A stretch of 27,961 nt of DNA from positions 1 to 27,961 of the IMG/VR virus record IMGVR_UViG_3300025289_000105; one strand, 5' to 3'. Made by a program: the position numbers and the translations under genes. The stretch is from a virus. Positions 2,955-21,863 of the stretch are shown here, in pieces (position 1 is the stretch's first letter; the number at the start of each line of letters is the position of its first letter). A model generated the notes under the pieces. That model ran no database searches. It worked only from the letters and a program-made list of their open reading frames with translations, and was not told the origin of the DNA.

Positions 2955-3551
2955 TTAATTTTTCCATATAGTATTGTTTATAATTAAAGAAATATTTCCT
3001 TGATGTACACCATATTTTATAGCTAATTCTTTTTGGGTATAATTTCCAGTATTATATAAGACTCTGATTTCATTAGCTATTTCTATATTTTTAATCTTTT
3101 GCCCTCTTCTATTTCTTGCATTTTCTTTAGCAGTTACAAAATTACAATTAGATGGTTCATAATTATCTTCATTTTCTATTCTATTTATTTGTAGATTTTC
3201 TAAGTATCCATTGTTTAGTGCCCAATCCCTGAAAACTATATAATCATTTGCCCATTCTGGGCAAATAGTAATCCCTCTACCACCATAATTGGGATAATTA
3301 CAATTTTTAGGATTAAAAATTCTTTGTTTTATTTGTGTCCAAATATGATATAATCTTGTTCCTTTTCCCCCATGTTTTGTAATAGCTTTTGCAGATAATT
3401 TATATTGTACACACCCACAGGATTTTGCTATTTTTCCTGAACTTAGGTATCTTTCAACTTCTTGTAAACAATCAGAACATTTAAATAAGGCCCAACTTTC
3501 CAATCTCCCTGATTTACTTAATCTTCTTGGTAAATTTTTAATTAGTTTCAT
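2955..3551 (-). CDS. HNH-type endonuclease with N-terminal zinc module and C-terminal HTH
   Basis: A 198-residue protein with three parts. Residues 1-47 are the zinc module (CSDC at 25-28, CGC at 45-47). Residues ~67-150 match the phage HNH/AP2-like family: LYHIWTQIKQR, YGGRGITICPEW, then INRIENEDNYEPSNCNFV and AKENARNRR. Residues ~155-197 look like a helix-turn-helix (TQKELAIKYGVHQGNISLII). Such free-standing genes generally act as homing endonucleases that nick or cut DNA to spread themselves. AAAGGAAA lies before the ATG. It is a close paralogue of 10366-10980. No split host gene is seen, so it is not obviously intron-borne. Confidence 0.8.
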   Translation of the reverse strand: MKLIKNLPRRLSKSGRLESWALFKCSDCLQEVERYLSSGKIAKSCGCVQYKLSAKAITKHGGKGTRLYHIWTQIKQRIFNPKNCNYPNYGGRGITICPEWANDYIVFRDWALNNGYLENLQINRIENEDNYEPSNCNFVTAKENARNRRGQKIKNIEIANEIRVLYNTGNYTQKELAIKYGVHQGNISLIINNTIWKN

Positions 3552-3866: not shown

Positions 3867-3895
3867 ATATTATCATTTATATTTAATTTAGTCAA
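3867..3895 (-). promoter_or_regulatory. Sigma70-like promoter candidate
   Basis: On the minus strand TTGACT (3895-3890) and TAATAT (3872-3867) are separated by exactly 17 bases. The -35 overlaps the last codons and stop of the radical SAM gene. The expected start of transcription is about 3860, the A of the ATG of the small zinc-ribbon gene, so it could give a leaderless message and drive the run of small genes to the left. In so AT-rich a sequence a chance match is possible. Confidence 0.35.
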
Positions 3896-4802
3896 ATAAA
3901 TTTTGTTGCCCAATTATGTTAGTTTTTTTCCATTGTTTTTTCTTATAATCTTTCCATGCTACAGATTTAAAAATAGCTTTATGATTAACCCACCTACTAA
4001 AATCTTTTTGATATTTATCAAATTTATTATATGGCATAACAAAAGGATTTATTTTTAATTTTCTGCATAATTCAACTCTATATAAGTCTTCTTCCAGAGT
4101 TGTATTATAACCAATTAGGACGAAACAAAACATTTTAGAAGAAGATAAACCAAAATTATTTAATAATTTAACTTTTTCAATAATTTGCTTATCCAAAAAT
4201 ACCCAATCAAAAGAAAACCTATAATAAGAATGCCATTTAATTCCTGCTAATATTTTAGCATTTTCTTCAGTAACTAATCTTATATCTGTTGCTTGATTGA
4301 AATCTATAATCATTTTCTTTTCACAAATTTCTTTTAAAATATCTATATGGTTATCATAGGCAAGTATATTATTATCTAAAAATATCCAGTATTTCCCCTT
4401 TGGATTTTTAAAATTTTCCCAAGATTGATTAAATTTAATTTTACCTTCTTTTTTAGGGACTTTGCAAAATGAACAATTTCTGCTACACCCTCTTGTGATG
4501 AACCCTATAGAATAATCACAATTTGGGTATAAAGTATAATCAGGGCACAAATATTCAATTTCATTTGGTAATTTAATGTTTAAATCATAACCAGTTCCAC
4601 CAATAATTGTTTTTGTATCCAAACCCTTTGGTAATGAAGAAAAATCAAAAACTTTAGAAGCATAAATTTTATCATATTCATCATTAAAAAATACCCCTTT
4701 CCAAAATTCAACTGCATCTCCTTTATTTTTATGATAAGCAGATAATTTCATCAATGCTATATTTGGAATTTTAGAATCTATATCTATTAAAGCTATTTTC
4801 AT
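3888..4802 (-). CDS. Radical SAM protein with B12-binding-like N-terminal domain
   Basis: A 304-residue enzyme. Residues 1-90 look like the Rossmann-type domain of cobalamin-binding radical SAM proteins (KIALIDID, NIALMKLSAYHKNKGD, KVFDFSS, IIGGTGYD), though the cobalamin signature DxHxxG is not visible. GFITRGCSRNCSFCKVP carries Cys106, Cys110 and Cys113 (CxxxCxxC), which would bind the 4Fe-4S cluster that splits S-adenosylmethionine. The barrel follows (YWIFLDNNILA). The C-terminus is IGQQNLFD, like a beta-clamp binding motif, and the upstream methyltransferase ends similarly. The ATG at 4802 is preferred to a TTG 9 bases upstream; it lies one base after the methyltransferase stop, so the genes are coupled. 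The substrate is unknown; modification of DNA or a nucleotide is a hypothesis. Confidence 0.82.
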   Translation of the reverse strand: MKIALIDIDSKIPNIALMKLSAYHKNKGDAVEFWKGVFFNDEYDKIYASKVFDFSSLPKGLDTKTIIGGTGYDLNIKLPNEIEYLCPDYTLYPNCDYSIGFITRGCSRNCSFCKVPKKEGKIKFNQSWENFKNPKGKYWIFLDNNILAYDNHIDILKEICEKKMIIDFNQATDIRLVTEENAKILAGIKWHSYYRFSFDWVFLDKQIIEKVKLLNNFGLSSSKMFCFVLIGYNTTLEEDLYRVELCRKLKINPFVMPYNKFDKYQKDFSRWVNHKAIFKSVAWKDYKKKQWKKTNIIGQQNLFD

Positions 4803-4803
4803 T

Positions 4804-6294
4804 TTAATCAAATAATTTTTGTTGACAATTAACAGATTTTATTCGTTGTTCAGCTATTTTAATATAATCTTCTTCTCTTTCAATCCCAATAAATTTTCTA
4901 TTCAATAATTTAGCAGCAATTCCTGTAGATCCACTTCCCATAAAAGGATCTAAAACCATATCTCCTTTTCTACTACCCAAGGTTATTAAATAACTCATTA
5001 ATTTTATTGGCTTCACGCACGGATGATTATTTTTATTTAGATTATTTCTTTCATTTCCACTACCTGTTTTTAATGATTTATCTTCAGTTCCTTGAATTCC
5101 CCCACCAACTTTATATTTCTCAAAATCAAGTCCTTTATTTTTTTCAGATTTAGGTGCTTTAGATTCTATTATAAAAGGAAAAGTTTTTTGTATATTTTCA
5201 GGTAATTCTTTTATTTTATTTTTCCACCAAGCATCAAGATCAAAGTATCTACTGAAAGAACCAGCATCATTATAATAATTTTTTACAACTTGTCTATTCA
5301 ACTTATCATCAAAACCACCACCCCCACCATATTTTTTAGGGCCACCACCGGAAACACCTTTTCTATCAATCCCATCATTTAATATATCATCTGAAACCAA
5401 AAGATTTGCTGGAAATCTTCCAGTATTGTTTCTAAATCCACTTTTTATGTTGCCATTATTAGCAAAACCATAAATTTCCCTACTTTCACTTCTATCTAAA
5501 TTTCCTTTTCTTTCATTATCCTTTTCATCCACATAAGGAATTCTACAATCATCCAACCAAGTAATTCCATGCCCATTATTTAATGCTTGTTCAGTAAAAG
5601 TTTTTTCTGGTAAAGGTTTCATAACTACTAATATAATTTCTATAGCTGGTTTGGGTTGGAATCCTGCAAAAGACCCAGAAAATTCTTTTACTTGATCTGA
5701 TATTGGAGTATCATCTAAAATTTCCCCTGTGCAATAATTATCTTTTAGTCTTGGTTGTTTTGGATACCCTTGTTTATTAGAATTAACTTTACTCATTTCT
5801 GCCATATTTTTTGTTACTTTTCTATTTTCTATAACTTCTCTTTCATATCCCAATCTTTTATCTAAAATTTTACTTATATTAGTTGCTTTTGGGAAGCCGG
5901 ACGAATATGTCCAATAAATACTACTAAAGTCTGTTCTAAATCCTGCCTGAGTAATATCCATTAATATTTGACACAAACTGTCCTGCCTTGATGTAGTCAT
6001 TATAAAAGCAAAAGCCCCTGGCTTTAAAACTCTTAAGCATTCTTCCCAAACTTCAATTGGAGGTAAAACATCCCATTCTTTCCCCATAAACCCTTTCCTT
6101 GCCTGAACTCTATAGAAAGGGTTAAAAGAATTACCTTCCTCATCTACTTGATCCAATCTTGGTTTAGTAATACTTGATAATTGATATGGTGGATCGGTTA
6201 CAATACAATCAATACTATTATTGGGGATATTTTTTAACTCTTCTAAACAATCCCCTAAATACAATGTTGAAAAATCATCTCTATAATGTTCCAT
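4804..6294 (-). CDS. DNA methyltransferase, beta-class N6-adenine/N4-cytosine
   Basis: A 496-residue site-specific DNA methyltransferase. Motif IV DPPY is at residues 34-37 and the SAM-binding motif I DPFMGSGSTG begins near residue 449, the circular order of the beta class. The long middle part (about 180-430) includes GITWLDDCRIPY and TGRFPANLLVSDDI, seen in phage methyltransferases, and probably holds the target-recognition region. DPPY is more often linked with adenine, but the base cannot be decided here. The ATG at 6294 gives the family-like start MEHYRDDFSTLYLGD; the in-frame extension upstream looks non-coding. The C-terminus CQQKLFD resembles a sliding-clamp motif. It overlaps the upstream gene by 14 bases and is coupled to the radical SAM gene. 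No cognate restriction enzyme is visible. Confidence 0.88.
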   Translation of the reverse strand: MEHYRDDFSTLYLGDCLEELKNIPNNSIDCIVTDPPYQLSSITKPRLDQVDEEGNSFNPFYRVQARKGFMGKEWDVLPPIEVWEECLRVLKPGAFAFIMTTSRQDSLCQILMDITQAGFRTDFSSIYWTYSSGFPKATNISKILDKRLGYEREVIENRKVTKNMAEMSKVNSNKQGYPKQPRLKDNYCTGEILDDTPISDQVKEFSGSFAGFQPKPAIEIILVVMKPLPEKTFTEQALNNGHGITWLDDCRIPYVDEKDNERKGNLDRSESREIYGFANNGNIKSGFRNNTGRFPANLLVSDDILNDGIDRKGVSGGGPKKYGGGGGFDDKLNRQVVKNYYNDAGSFSRYFDLDAWWKNKIKELPENIQKTFPFIIESKAPKSEKNKGLDFEKYKVGGGIQGTEDKSLKTGSGNERNNLNKNNHPCVKPIKLMSYLITLGSRKGDMVLDPFMGSGSTGIAAKLLNRKFIGIEREEDYIKIAEQRIKSVNCQQKLFD

Positions 6295-7029: not shown

Positions 7030-7782
7030 TTAAACACTCACATGAATGTCAAACTTGTCCCCAGAAAGTTTCACTTTTGGGCTACCCATCTTTGTCAAAG
7101 AATACCCTTTTTCCTGTGCATACCCACCATAATTATAATAATGCCCAGTAACAATTACATAAGATTTCCTTATATCTATTGTTTTCCTTTTTTTATTAAC
7201 TCTTTGGTATTCTGCACTATCTATTATTATATCATGTACATGCCCACAAGTAACTATATCTGCTTCAAAAGATTTGGCTATATCAAGTATAGCTTTCAAT
7301 TTTGTATGTTTTAATGTAGCCGAAGAAGCCCCATGTGTGGAATACATGGAATAACTTTGGTTACCGACATAGAATAAAGACCAACCAGCATACCCAAGAT
7401 AAGGTATTTTTAATTCTTTACAAATAATTTTGGATATATCTATACCTAATTCTTTATTCACCCTGGACTCGTGGTTCCCTTGGAGATAGCCCACAATTAA
7501 ATTCTTTTCTGCCAAAGGTCTAAGATATTCTGAAATATCCTCTATTTGCTTCTGGGGGGATATTTGTTCATAAACTCCTGCACCAACAGAGTGTCTTGAA
7601 TTAGCTTCTATCATATCCCCCATACAGAATACATATAAATTATTTTCTAAACAATATTGTAACATTTTTTCAAATTTTTCAACATTACATTGTTTTGATC
7701 CATAATGCACATCCCCAATAAAAACCATCTCTGCATAATTTTTATCTTTTTTTATCTCTAATCTCTGTTTATTAAGTAACAT
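7030..7782 (-). CDS. Calcineurin-like metallophosphoesterase
   Basis: A 250-residue hydrolase with the full two-metal set: GDVH (Asp24, His26), GDMIE (Asp56), GNHE (Asn103, His104), His151, and GHVH (His182, His184). These would hold two divalent metals that hydrolyse phosphomono- or diesters. Proteins of this size in phages are described as phosphoesterases acting on nucleotides, nucleic acid ends or cyclic phosphates; the substrate cannot be read here. AAGGAAAATA precedes the ATG. Its end is directly followed by the NUMOD4-HNH gene. An end-healing role together with the RNA ligase 6 kb downstream is possible but only an inference. Confidence 0.85.
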   Translation of the reverse strand: MLLNKQRLEIKKDKNYAEMVFIGDVHYGSKQCNVEKFEKMLQYCLENNLYVFCMGDMIEANSRHSVGAGVYEQISPQKQIEDISEYLRPLAEKNLIVGYLQGNHESRVNKELGIDISKIICKELKIPYLGYAGWSLFYVGNQSYSMYSTHGASSATLKHTKLKAILDIAKSFEADIVTCGHVHDIIIDSAEYQRVNKKRKTIDIRKSYVIVTGHYYNYGGYAQEKGYSLTKMGSPKVKLSGDKFDIHVSV

Positions 7783-8843: not shown

Positions 8844-9788
8844 TTAAACCATTTTTATTTGAATTTTTTCTAACTTTCTTTCCTGTATATCTTTATATCC
8901 CAAATCAATTCCTATTGCTTTTCTTCTATTTTCAATAGCTACTTTAAGTGTAGTTGCTGAACCACAAAAAGGGTCAAGTATAATATCATTTTCTTTTGTG
9001 GAGCATAGTAGCATTCGTTCCACTAATTTAAAATTCCACATAGCATAATGTTTTTCAGATGAAGGGGTTGTATTAATATTCCAAACATCCCCAGGATTCT
9101 TAAAATCATAGTTATTTTCCTTTAACCCCATCATTTTAGCCCTTCCAGGGGTATTGTTTAATTTTGTTGTTTCTCTATCCCTAACAATATTGTCTTTTGT
9201 TTTTGTTGGTTCTTTTACAGCAACCAAGTCAAAATAATATTTCGTATTCTTTACAAACATAAAAATTGATTCCCATTTTTTACTAAATCTATCCTGACAA
9301 CTTTCTGGCATACAATTTCCTTTGGTCCACACAATATCATTTCGTAATATCCAACCTTCATCTATCAAAGCTATGGCGATTCGATGAGGGATAAGCATTT
9401 TACATTTATTTGCTAAACTTTTTTCTTTAGTTGGTGGAGAATATTTTTCAATATTAAAAGGTTTTCCAAATTCTGTATGTTTTTTAGCATATTCATAATT
9501 TCCAGATTTACCACTACCATTATAATTATCTCCAATATTTAGAAAAAATATACCATCGTCTTTTAAAACTCTCCTAGCTTCTTTTACCCATAATAAGGTA
9601 TGTTTGATATAATCTTTATAAGATGACTCAAGCCCATATTGTCCTTTCCAATCATCAATAACGATATCAGGAATATTATATTTTCGTAAACCCCAATATG
9701 GCGGGGAAGTTATAATTGCTTGAATACTATTATCTTCTATTGGCCATTTTTCAAACACAGATTGATGATATATTTCATAATTTTTCAT
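8844..9788 (-). CDS. DNA methyltransferase, beta-class (TSPPYW type)
   Basis: A 314-residue DNA methyltransferase. The catalytic motif IV TSPPYWGLR is at residues 27-35, and motif I DPFCGSATT begins near residue 272, the beta-class order. SPPY with W next to it is common in N4-cytosine enzymes, though adenine enzymes also carry it. Between are NIGDNYNGSGKSG, WILRNDIVWTKGNCMP and GDVWNI, typical of phage and restriction-system members. The gene starts immediately before the HAD gene's stop with only a weak site, so coupling is likely. It is not closely similar to the methyltransferase at 4804-6294 and probably has a different target. No restriction endonuclease is adjacent, so self-protection or regulation is likely. 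Confidence 0.88.
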   Translation of the reverse strand: MKNYEIYHQSVFEKWPIEDNSIQAIITSPPYWGLRKYNIPDIVIDDWKGQYGLESSYKDYIKHTLLWVKEARRVLKDDGIFFLNIGDNYNGSGKSGNYEYAKKHTEFGKPFNIEKYSPPTKEKSLANKCKMLIPHRIAIALIDEGWILRNDIVWTKGNCMPESCQDRFSKKWESIFMFVKNTKYYFDLVAVKEPTKTKDNIVRDRETTKLNNTPGRAKMMGLKENNYDFKNPGDVWNINTTPSSEKHYAMWNFKLVERMLLCSTKENDIILDPFCGSATTLKVAIENRRKAIGIDLGYKDIQERKLEKIQIKMV

Positions 9789-10403
9789 TTATTTTATATT
9801 ATCCAAAAATTCTGCTACACTGTAAACAGGAATAATATTTTTGAACTTATGTGAATCAGCAATAAATTGAAGAAAATATTGGTTATAGGGGCGAACCAAA
9901 AGAAATGACTTACATCGTGGTGCTTCTACAACCGCTTCAATAAGGTTCTCAGGGTAATCATCAATAAAATAATCAATTTTTACTCCATCTAAAATTTTAC
10001 CTTTTTTCTCCGTAGGGATAACACTAAAATGTTCAAGAGAAGAATATTTTTTAACCCATTCGTTTGTTTGTTGCAAAACATTTTTGCCTGCTGTATTTCT
10101 CCTAGAAGTAATAAAGTAAATACTGTTATTTTCTTTTTCAAGTATTACTAATTTATGGAAAGTTTCAGAAGAAACTAAAGGCTTCAAATTTAACCAAAAA
10201 TCTACAACATTTTTATCAATTTCACGCCATACCAATTTGTGTTGTTCCTTAGTTAAAGGATAGCCCCAATCCCACCAATTATACTTTCTAACTTCCTCTA
10301 TATCTTCAATTATTGGGGTTCCAAATAGTTTATTAGCTACCTTGGAAAACCCATAATGAAAATTACTAAGGCAACCATCCAAATCTAGTGCTATATTTGA
10401 CAT
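9789..10403 (-). CDS. HAD-type 5'(3')-deoxynucleotidase-like phosphatase
   Basis: A 204-residue HAD-superfamily protein of the NT5C-like group. Motif I is ALDLDGCLSNF (nucleophile Asp7, acid/base Asp9), motif II YFITSRR, the lysine is in the PTEKKGK segment, and motif III is YFIDDYPEN with two aspartates. The cap between motifs I and II (NWWDWGYPL) is typical of phage relatives that dephosphorylate deoxynucleoside monophosphates. Next to the diphosphohydrolase-family gene, it fits control of the dNTP pool. The ATG at 10403 is preceded by only a weak GGA and lies 38 bases inside the 3' end of the HNH gene. Confidence 0.8.
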   Translation of the reverse strand: MSNIALDLDGCLSNFHYGFSKVANKLFGTPIIEDIEEVRKYNWWDWGYPLTKEQHKLVWREIDKNVVDFWLNLKPLVSSETFHKLVILEKENNSIYFITSRRNTAGKNVLQQTNEWVKKYSSLEHFSVIPTEKKGKILDGVKIDYFIDDYPENLIEAVVEAPRCKSFLLVRPYNQYFLQFIADSHKFKNIIPVYSVAEFLDNIK

Positions 10404-10980
10404 TATTTATATTTTTCCATTGTTTTTTATTTATAATAAAAGAAATTGTACCTTGACTTACACTATATTTTATAGCCAGTTCTTTTTGTGTATAATTTCC
10501 TGTAGCATGTAAGAATCTAATTTCATTAGCTATTTTCATATTTAACTTTATTGGTCTTTTATTATTACAATTTTCTTTTGTTGTAACAAAATTACAATTT
10601 TCTGGACAATAATTACCATTATTATTTATTCTATTTATTTGTAATCCTTCTTGATAACCATTACTTAATGACCAATCCCTGAATACAATATAATCATTTG
10701 CCCATTCAGGGCAGATAGTAATGCCTCTACCGCCATAATCTTTATATCGTTTATTATTTGGATTTGTACATCTTGTCTTTATGTTTGTCCAAACGCCATA
10801 CAATCTTATTTTTCTATCCCCATGTTTTATATTTTTATTACATCCACAAGATTTGGCTTTTACCCCTGAATCCAATCTCATTTCTACATAAATTTTGCAA
10901 TGTTCACATAAAAATATTGCCCATTTTCTTAACCATCCTTTTTTATCTCTTCTTGATTCTATTTCTTTGATCAATTCCAT
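10366..10980 (-). CDS. HNH-type endonuclease with N-terminal zinc module and C-terminal HTH
   Basis: A 204-residue paralogue of the protein at 2955-3551. Residues 1-47 are the zinc module (CEHC, CGC), followed by LYGVWTNIKTRC, YGGRGITICPEW, QINRINNNGNYCPENCNF and TKENCNNKR, then the helix-turn-helix TQKELAIKYSVSQGTISFII. Stretches such as ANDYIVFRDW are identical between the two. It carries a 14-residue C-terminal tail (NNVKYSTRFGWLP) missing in the paralogue; this tail is encoded by the 38 bases overlapping the HAD gene, as if the gene had been inserted just before it. The start has no clear ribosome binding site. Expected activity: homing endonuclease. Confidence 0.8.
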   Translation of the reverse strand: MELIKEIESRRDKKGWLRKWAIFLCEHCKIYVEMRLDSGVKAKSCGCNKNIKHGDRKIRLYGVWTNIKTRCTNPNNKRYKDYGGRGITICPEWANDYIVFRDWSLSNGYQEGLQINRINNNGNYCPENCNFVTTKENCNNKRPIKLNMKIANEIRFLHATGNYTQKELAIKYSVSQGTISFIINKKQWKNINNVKYSTRFGWLP

Positions 10981-21119: not shown

Positions 21120-21863
21120 ATGGAATTAATTAGAAACTTACCAACAAGAAGAGATAAAAATGGATATGCAGTATCCTGGGCCGTTTTTAAATGCCTTGCT
21201 TGTTTACAAGAAGTTGAAAGAAGATTAACTAATGGTTTAAAACAAAACTCTTGCGGTTGTGTTCAATACAAATTATCTTCTGAATCAAATAAAGGTCAAA
21301 AAAGAACAGAAGAGTCAAGACAAAAAATGAGAGAAAGTCATTTAGGTAAAAAATATACAGAAGAAACTAAAAAAATATGGTCTAAGCAAAGAAAAGGTGA
21401 GAATAATCCCATGTATGGTAAAATAGTATCTGAAGAAACAAGACAAAAGATAAGAGAAAAAGCTATAGGTAGAAAACATACAGAAGAGGAGAATAGAAGG
21501 AATTCTGAAAGAAATAAAGGAGAAAATAATCCTATGTATGATACTCATAGATTTGGTGAATTATCAACTAATTGGCAAAATGGAAAATCCTTTGAAATAT
21601 ATCCCCCTGAATTCAATAAGGGATTTAAACAACAAATATTGGAAAGAGATAACTATACATGTCAAGACCCAAATTGTGAACATAAATCAAATACTTTAGA
21701 TGCACATCATATAGATTATGACAAAAAGAACAATATACCAGAGAATGTTATAACTTTATGTAGAAGTTGTCACATGAAAACTAATGGCAAAAATAAAAGG
21801 CAATATTTTACAGAATTCTACCAAAATATAATGATGGGTAAATTAATGGAATGCTTACTATAA
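21120..21863 (+). CDS. HNH homing endonuclease with zinc module and NUMOD3 repeats
   Basis: A 247-residue protein. Residues 1-47 are the same zinc module found in three minus-strand ORFs ([17 protein letters not shown], then SCGC). Residues ~58-145 are NUMOD3-like repeats ([35 protein letters not shown]; two copies of KGENNPMY). Residues 175-225 hold the HNH core with zinc knuckles: [40 protein letters not shown]. It should cut DNA at a homing site. GGGAGAAACGCTGAA gives a ribosome binding site at the end of the preceding gene. It is inserted between two genes that share a domain. Confidence 0.88.

Follow-up and report, generated by a model that had tools for sequence, protein, structure and literature searches.

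Clamp-like C-terminal tails on a phage DNA methyltransferase and a neighboring radical SAM enzyme: putative tethers for post-replicative DNA modification

Two adjacent genes in a fragment of a phage genome (virus record IMGVR_UViG_3300025289_000105; the 27,961 nt analyzed are termed here the window) encode a DNA methyltransferase and a radical SAM enzyme whose C-termini, QQKLFD and QQNLFD, resemble bacterial clamp-binding motifs. From sequence comparisons we consider it probable that a C-terminal end of this kind tethers its enzyme to the sliding clamp, for modification of DNA after replication, the binding being putative. The two peptides would act as bacterial-type clamp-binding motifs (Q-x-x-[LM]-[FL]) in which the Phe is followed by an acidic residue and the free carboxylate. 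Carried on flexible tails, they would keep the methyltransferase attached to a sliding clamp on phage DNA during replication, most likely to the DnaN-like clamp of the phage itself; in this clade the radical SAM enzyme would be attached in the same way. Both enzymes would then work on DNA freshly synthesized behind the fork. The grounds for this reading are the tail sequences and the fact that they recur in DNA-modification families unrelated to one another, a tail predicted to be disordered, and an operon of clamp, polymerase and loader genes in a relative; from these we infer tail binding, the identity of the clamp and an action of the radical SAM enzyme on DNA. The reading appears well supported for the methyltransferase, whose tail is most likely such a tether, and moderately supported for the radical SAM enzyme.

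Two adjacent genes and the form of their C-termini

The first gene of the pair (4804-6294, minus strand; 496 aa) encodes an N6/N4 DNA methyltransferase (PF01555, E 1.2e-34; phrog_67, E 9.6e-66), and the second (3888-4802, minus strand; 304 aa from ATG) the radical SAM enzyme (phrog_9298, E 6.7e-82; Pfam Radical_SAM, E 6.5e-5). A single nucleotide separates the methyltransferase stop codon from the radical SAM ATG on the same strand, which makes translational coupling probable and agrees with the initial annotation, where the genes had been described as adjacent and coupled. Translation of both genes also confirmed the ends given there, GQQNLFD and CQQKLFD: the methyltransferase terminates in ...VNCQQKLFD, with the putative clamp-binding peptide QQKLFD at 4807-4824 (minus strand), and the radical SAM enzyme in ...IIGQQNLFD, with QQNLFD at 3891-3908 (minus strand). 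Among all listed gene ends of the window, no other likely gene has such a C-terminus; an antisense ORF ending SFQFCMF (7042-7314) was rejected as not credible as a gene.

A second DNA methyltransferase gene (8844-9788, minus strand; PF01555, E 2.7e-52) ends IQIKMV, and the ends of its orthologues in relatives L260 and L261, IQIKML and IQIKLL, fit the canonical clamp pattern; by sequence it is a weak candidate for a comparable tail. In relative L262 this methyltransferase is reduced to a C-terminal remnant. Elsewhere in the window, ORFs 2955-3551, 10366-10980 and 21120-21863 are related repeats with a Cys-rich start, two of them containing GGRGITICPEW and the third being HNH-like at its end. 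Their appearance is that of homing-endonuclease-type elements dispersed in this genome and its relatives.

In the bacterial beta-clamp-binding motif, Gln occupies position 1, [LM] position 4 and [FL] position 5, and position 2 is canonically aliphatic, with Leu best, but tolerant (PMC11139829); the consensus of Dalrymple 2001, reviewed in the same article, is QL[SD]LF. The earlier claim that both tails fit the clamp pattern stands: at positions 1, 4 and 5 the translated QQNLF and QQKLF agree with this definition. Position 2 is Gln in both tails, where an aliphatic residue is favored, and with this Gln the window tails fall short of the motif at its strongest.

The radical SAM enzyme itself appears typical of its superfamily in its CX3CX2C cysteines (C105/C109/C112, alignment numbering), which are invariant in 46 homologues. 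Its AlphaFold2 model has a mean pLDDT of 92; about 16 residues past the conserved W-x-x-Y end are of low confidence, the tail bearing QQNLFD has a pLDDT of about 45-54, and the last 6 residues fall below 50. A tail of such low confidence on so confident a model is predicted to be free or disordered. A fold search with the model returned mostly radical SAM enzymes as best matches (SuiB, lipoyl synthase) at low TM-scores, and matches so weak and general do not indicate the substrate.

Recurrence of the tail among modification enzymes

Homologue C-termini were taken from viral and bacterial contigs, and a tail was scored as Q..[LIM]F in the last 9 residues. This pattern occurs in 24 of 89 methyltransferase homologues (27%) and in 11 of 1586 other ORFs on the same loci, and all but one of these 11, a small unassigned ORF, are methyltransferases of other families (PF02086; phrog_799) or PAPS-reductase-type proteins. 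A background rate came from the viral contigs recovered in a scan of the collection for QLxLFD-stop and for a scrambled control pattern, matches that are essentially random: 6 of their 1,828 ORFs bear the tail. Three of the six owe their retrieval to the pattern, so that the rate among unselected viral genes is about 3 in 1,825, and one of these approximately three is, by eye, a methyltransferase C-terminus in sequence. The QLxLFD-stop scan was rejected as evidence in its own right, its matches being almost all chance (open frames of at least 80 aa: 3, versus 1 for the scrambled pattern). The excess among methyltransferase homologues is marked whether they are compared with the same loci (Fisher p 3e-24) or with the unselected genes (1e-30), and persists after merging at 60% identity, where 11 of 51 clusters have the tail (p 7e-16; a merged cluster is positive if any member is tailed, and the comparison sets are unmerged in the Fisher tests). 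Among genes outside recognized modification families, merged at 60%, the tail is found in 1 of 1322.

These rates bear directly on chance, which the initial annotation had raised as a caveat. The pattern has only three fixed positions, and the genes are A/T-rich (GC 31.5%), with CAA, TTA and TTT common as codons; such a motif might arise at random. Set against this are the frequency of 27% in methyltransferase homologues versus about 3 in 1,825 unselected viral genes, a rate of 0.13% for the same pattern in internal 9-residue blocks, and the rarity of scrambled patterns at gene ends. We regard chance as a very improbable explanation; two such ends on adjacent genes would not be expected from it, and the two are linked at the level of DNA (see below).

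Positions that the search pattern leaves free are informative in their own right. In 37 tail-bearing proteins, among which related sequences are counted more than once, position 2 is Leu in 18, and the Phe is followed by Asp or Glu in 23 and by the end of the chain in 11 (34 of 37 together), features that fit published clamp-peptide chemistry. Q, L and F/L are constant among the ends QQKLL, QGKLL, QQSLF, QQKLF, QTKLF and QQTLFD of one methyltransferase clade, which differ at positions 2 and 3. A homologue 52% identical to the window methyltransferase (L018) ends NNEKK, without the tail. We note also that a methyltransferase of a cultured phage, Bacteroides phage BI-TP1 gp90 (L006, 1977-2645), ends VQTNLFDK; a radical SAM homologue without a tail is encoded two genes downstream of it.

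PAPS-reductase-type proteins bear the tail in 7 of 24 cases, a rate not used as an independent test because the seed sequences were found via the motif; some of the tail-bearing members weakly match BrxP or DndC. In one cluster (L151, 1824-4535) three genes, encoding a methyltransferase (QERLF), a radical SAM enzyme (QIGLF) and another methyltransferase (QVSIF), all have clamp-like ends. A near-identical cluster is present in L210, and in L151 the radical SAM end QIGLFGGTE and the phrog_799 methyltransferase end QVSIFGGTA both have GGT after the motif. Like ends on neighboring genes are seen again in a Lentisphaerae prophage (L179, 2008-3906), in a PAPS-reductase-type protein (QQQEFIFD), a small ORF (QQQFNF) and a radical SAM enzyme (QLQFNF) encoded in that order. 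By sequence, clamp-like ends are strongly over-represented in homologous phage methyltransferases and recur in radical SAM and PAPS-reductase-type proteins, and not in other phage genes.

Copying between gene ends and the status of the radical SAM tail

The last 24 nt of the radical SAM and methyltransferase genes match at 20 positions, the next-best of the 666 gene-end pairs of the window reaching 17. The likeness includes a 21-nt repeat present as copy 1, CAACAAAATTTATTTGACTAA (3888-3908, minus strand), and copy 2, CAACAAAAATTATTTGATTAA (4804-4824, minus strand), identical at 19 of 21 positions and confined to these gene ends in the window and the near relatives searched. Relatives L002, L096 and L258, whose radical SAM enzymes are 94% and methyltransferases 100% identical to those of the window, have the same two ends, QQNLFD being identical in L002/L096. 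A further group (L003, L017 and L262; radical SAM 86%, methyltransferase 69% identical to the window) has QQKLI at the end of both genes. In L262 this end results from a 1-nt insertion, relative to the window, common to both gene ends; both genes terminate in CAACAAAAATTAATTTGACAT, and the identity runs for 21 or more nucleotides across and past the stop codon. The radical SAM enzymes of L004 and L259 end QQKLI without that methyltransferase upstream, the methyltransferase of L261 ends QQKLI without a radical SAM gene, and in L259 the likeness of the radical SAM gene end to that of the methyltransferase in L261 and L262 extends about 10 nt further upstream.

Within the clade, the likeness of the two gene ends is best read as copying between them, a form of concerted evolution, and the radical SAM tail was probably gained by copying of the 3' end of the neighboring methyltransferase gene and then kept. 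The warning in the initial annotation that the ends are alike in DNA, and that gene-end conversion should be considered, was well placed, as the 20 of 24 matching nucleotides and the joint insertion in L262 attest. Since the window tails are DNA-level copies, the two matches count once and are not independent evidence.

The copying raises the alternative of an effect of DNA only, in which what was copied is a gene-end sequence of 20 nt, perhaps a promoter -35 element with an A/T-rich upstream element, and the peptide is a functionless by-product. Such an effect could account for the identity past the stop codon and the shared insertion in L262, for the longer likeness of the L259 end to the methyltransferase ends, and for the restriction of the sequence to these gene ends in these genomes; a -35-like TTGAC also lies over the radical SAM stop codon, followed after the gene by an extended -10-like TGATAATAT. 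The complete promoter-like site, TTGACT-N17-TAATAT (3867-3895, minus strand), has 9 of 12 matches and a TG before the second hexamer; its -35 hexamer overlaps the radical SAM gene at the stop and final codons, a like site is found at the equivalent place in L262, and the hexamer may add a DNA-level constraint. This site lies a few nucleotides upstream of the next ATG, so that a transcript from it could be leaderless. Against an effect of DNA only, promoter-like sites in the region are not commoner than in shuffled sequence, the tail is retained in both the window and L258 despite differing DNA 3' of the radical SAM stop, and unrelated methyltransferases, radical SAM and PAPS-type proteins share the same type of peptide with other codons and other downstream DNA. 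We judge this alternative distinctly unlikely. For the same reason, an explanation by recent short DNA duplication alone, which the initial annotation held would undo its proposal, does not suffice: copying is real within the clade, but the same type of peptide recurs far outside it.

The radical SAM homologues give a more divided picture, and the search for the motif in homologues, as first suggested, found it enriched for the methyltransferase and sparse for its neighbor. The window radical SAM enzyme is a member of phrog_9298, but most members of this family are without the tail, which is present in 5 of 158 homologues (4 of 49 clusters at 60% identity) as QQNLFD, QIRMFT, QIGLFGGTE and QLSIF. 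The excess over same-loci genes has p 0.01 unmerged and 8e-4 merged, and that over unselected genes 1e-5 merged; with the window lineage removed, the values are 0.007 against the same loci and 3e-4 against unselected genes. The nearest tail-less homologues are 61-68% identical to the window enzyme. By sequence, three other radical SAM lineages (L112, L151/L210 and L221) have gained such tails independently. As a separate observation, an 83-aa ORF directly after a tail-less radical SAM gene (L193, 3895-4146, plus strand) ends NQLSLF, the strongest form of the motif.

One could hold from this that, of the two tails, only that of the methyltransferase is a genuine clamp-binding motif, the radical SAM copy being a functionless passenger of gene-end copying. 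The weaker enrichment among radical SAM enzymes than among methyltransferases, the closeness of tail-less homologues and the visible copying of DNA all favor a passenger; the independent tails of the three other lineages, significant with the window lineage set aside, weigh against one, and we find it doubtful. Those three gains tip the balance toward a real function of the radical SAM tail; such a function would mean that DNA is the target of this enzyme.

A clamp in the clade, and comparison with known systems

A 73-kb relative, G011, carries both the QQKLI pair and a protein of 334 aa (L512, 7057-8061) that matches the DNA polymerase processivity factor family phrog_947 (E 2.7e-23). Its genes run in the order DnaN-like clamp, family-A polymerase (PolA) and AAA+ clamp loader (phrog_5846, E 2.2e-66), with a primase and a helicase near this operon; Edwardsiella phage ZHS and Vibrio phage KF4 also have clamp, polymerase and loader annotated in this order. 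The G011 clamp, identified from ORF inspection and PHROGs, is divergent: Pfam DNA_pol3_beta scores E 0.023, below the cut-off, a search of the clade for the Pfam clamp domain gave no match, and alignment shows 13-18% identity to the ZHS and KF4 clamps. An AlphaFold2 model of it from two sequences had a pLDDT of 31 and was unusable. The phrog_947 match occurs in 1 of 49 contigs (G011 only); the other 48 searched, many of them fragments, contain no clamp gene, and the host clamp would have to serve there. The window, a fragment without the clamp region, likewise holds no clamp gene; presumably its phage has the same clamp as G011, and the clamp concerned may be that of the phage rather than of the host. 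PolA tails IKEIFDI (G011) and IKEIFE (L514) slightly resemble the window tails but have no Gln, and PolA of ZHS and of KF4 ends differently; we set these aside as a hint only. Adjoining the G011 clamp gene is a match to phrog_842, a beta-glucosyl-HMC-alpha-glucosyltransferase (L512, 8079-8906, minus strand), hinting at a glycosylated base.

Counting against a clamp tether are the QQKLI ends of L262 and L259, with Ile for Phe, together with the Gln at position 2, the tail-less radical SAM homologues, the NNEKK end of L018 and the lack of a clamp gene in the window. The tether nevertheless remains our preferred reading. A broader proposition, possible though short of an even chance, is that clamp tethering through C-terminal peptides is widespread in phages and extends to chemically unrelated DNA-modification enzymes (several methyltransferase families, PAPS-reductase/DndC-like proteins and radical SAM enzymes), and that gene-end copying can carry the tails from one gene to its neighbor; if so, possession of the tail would identify phrog_9298, an orphan radical SAM family of phages, as acting on DNA. 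Clamp tethering, if true, would give phages a simple means to modify DNA during synthesis, before host nucleases arrive. It would also provide a test of guilt by tail, in which orphan enzymes such as this radical SAM family, and PAPS-reductase-like phage proteins usually listed as auxiliary metabolism, are predicted to act on DNA.

Searches confined to the open-access literature turned up no description of clamp-binding tails on the DNA methyltransferases of phages, and the text of the review of clamp-binding motifs (PMC11139829) does not mention methyltransferases. The window tails are like the bacterial motif in having Gln 1, Leu 4 and Phe 5 on a C-terminal tail, and like the end of Pol III alpha in the acidic residue and free carboxylate that follow; as predicted motifs they depart from the bacterial one in their Gln at position 2 and their location on phage DNA-modification enzymes. 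Insertion sequence (IS) transposases bind the host beta clamp through a short motif (PMC4549789) and thus resemble the reading proposed here, as mobile-element enzymes with a short clamp motif, but serve transposition and not DNA modification. The plasmid methyltransferases M.EcoGIX/M.BceJIII are reported to associate with DNA polymerase I, and the authors suggested that another host protein, e.g. the clamp, might mediate (PMC7736820); these are again mobile-element methyltransferases linked to replication, unlike the window enzymes in that the partner is PolI and a C-terminal clamp motif is not known to be described for them. A further functional likeness is to DNMT1, which, held by PCNA, was shown experimentally to methylate newly replicated DNA (PMC9690074): there a DNA methyltransferase rides on a sliding clamp with new DNA as its substrate, but the enzyme and the position of its motif are unrelated and the clamp is PCNA and not of DnaN type. 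If the binding predicted for the window proteins is true, they would constitute a phage parallel to DNMT1/PCNA built from unrelated enzymes.
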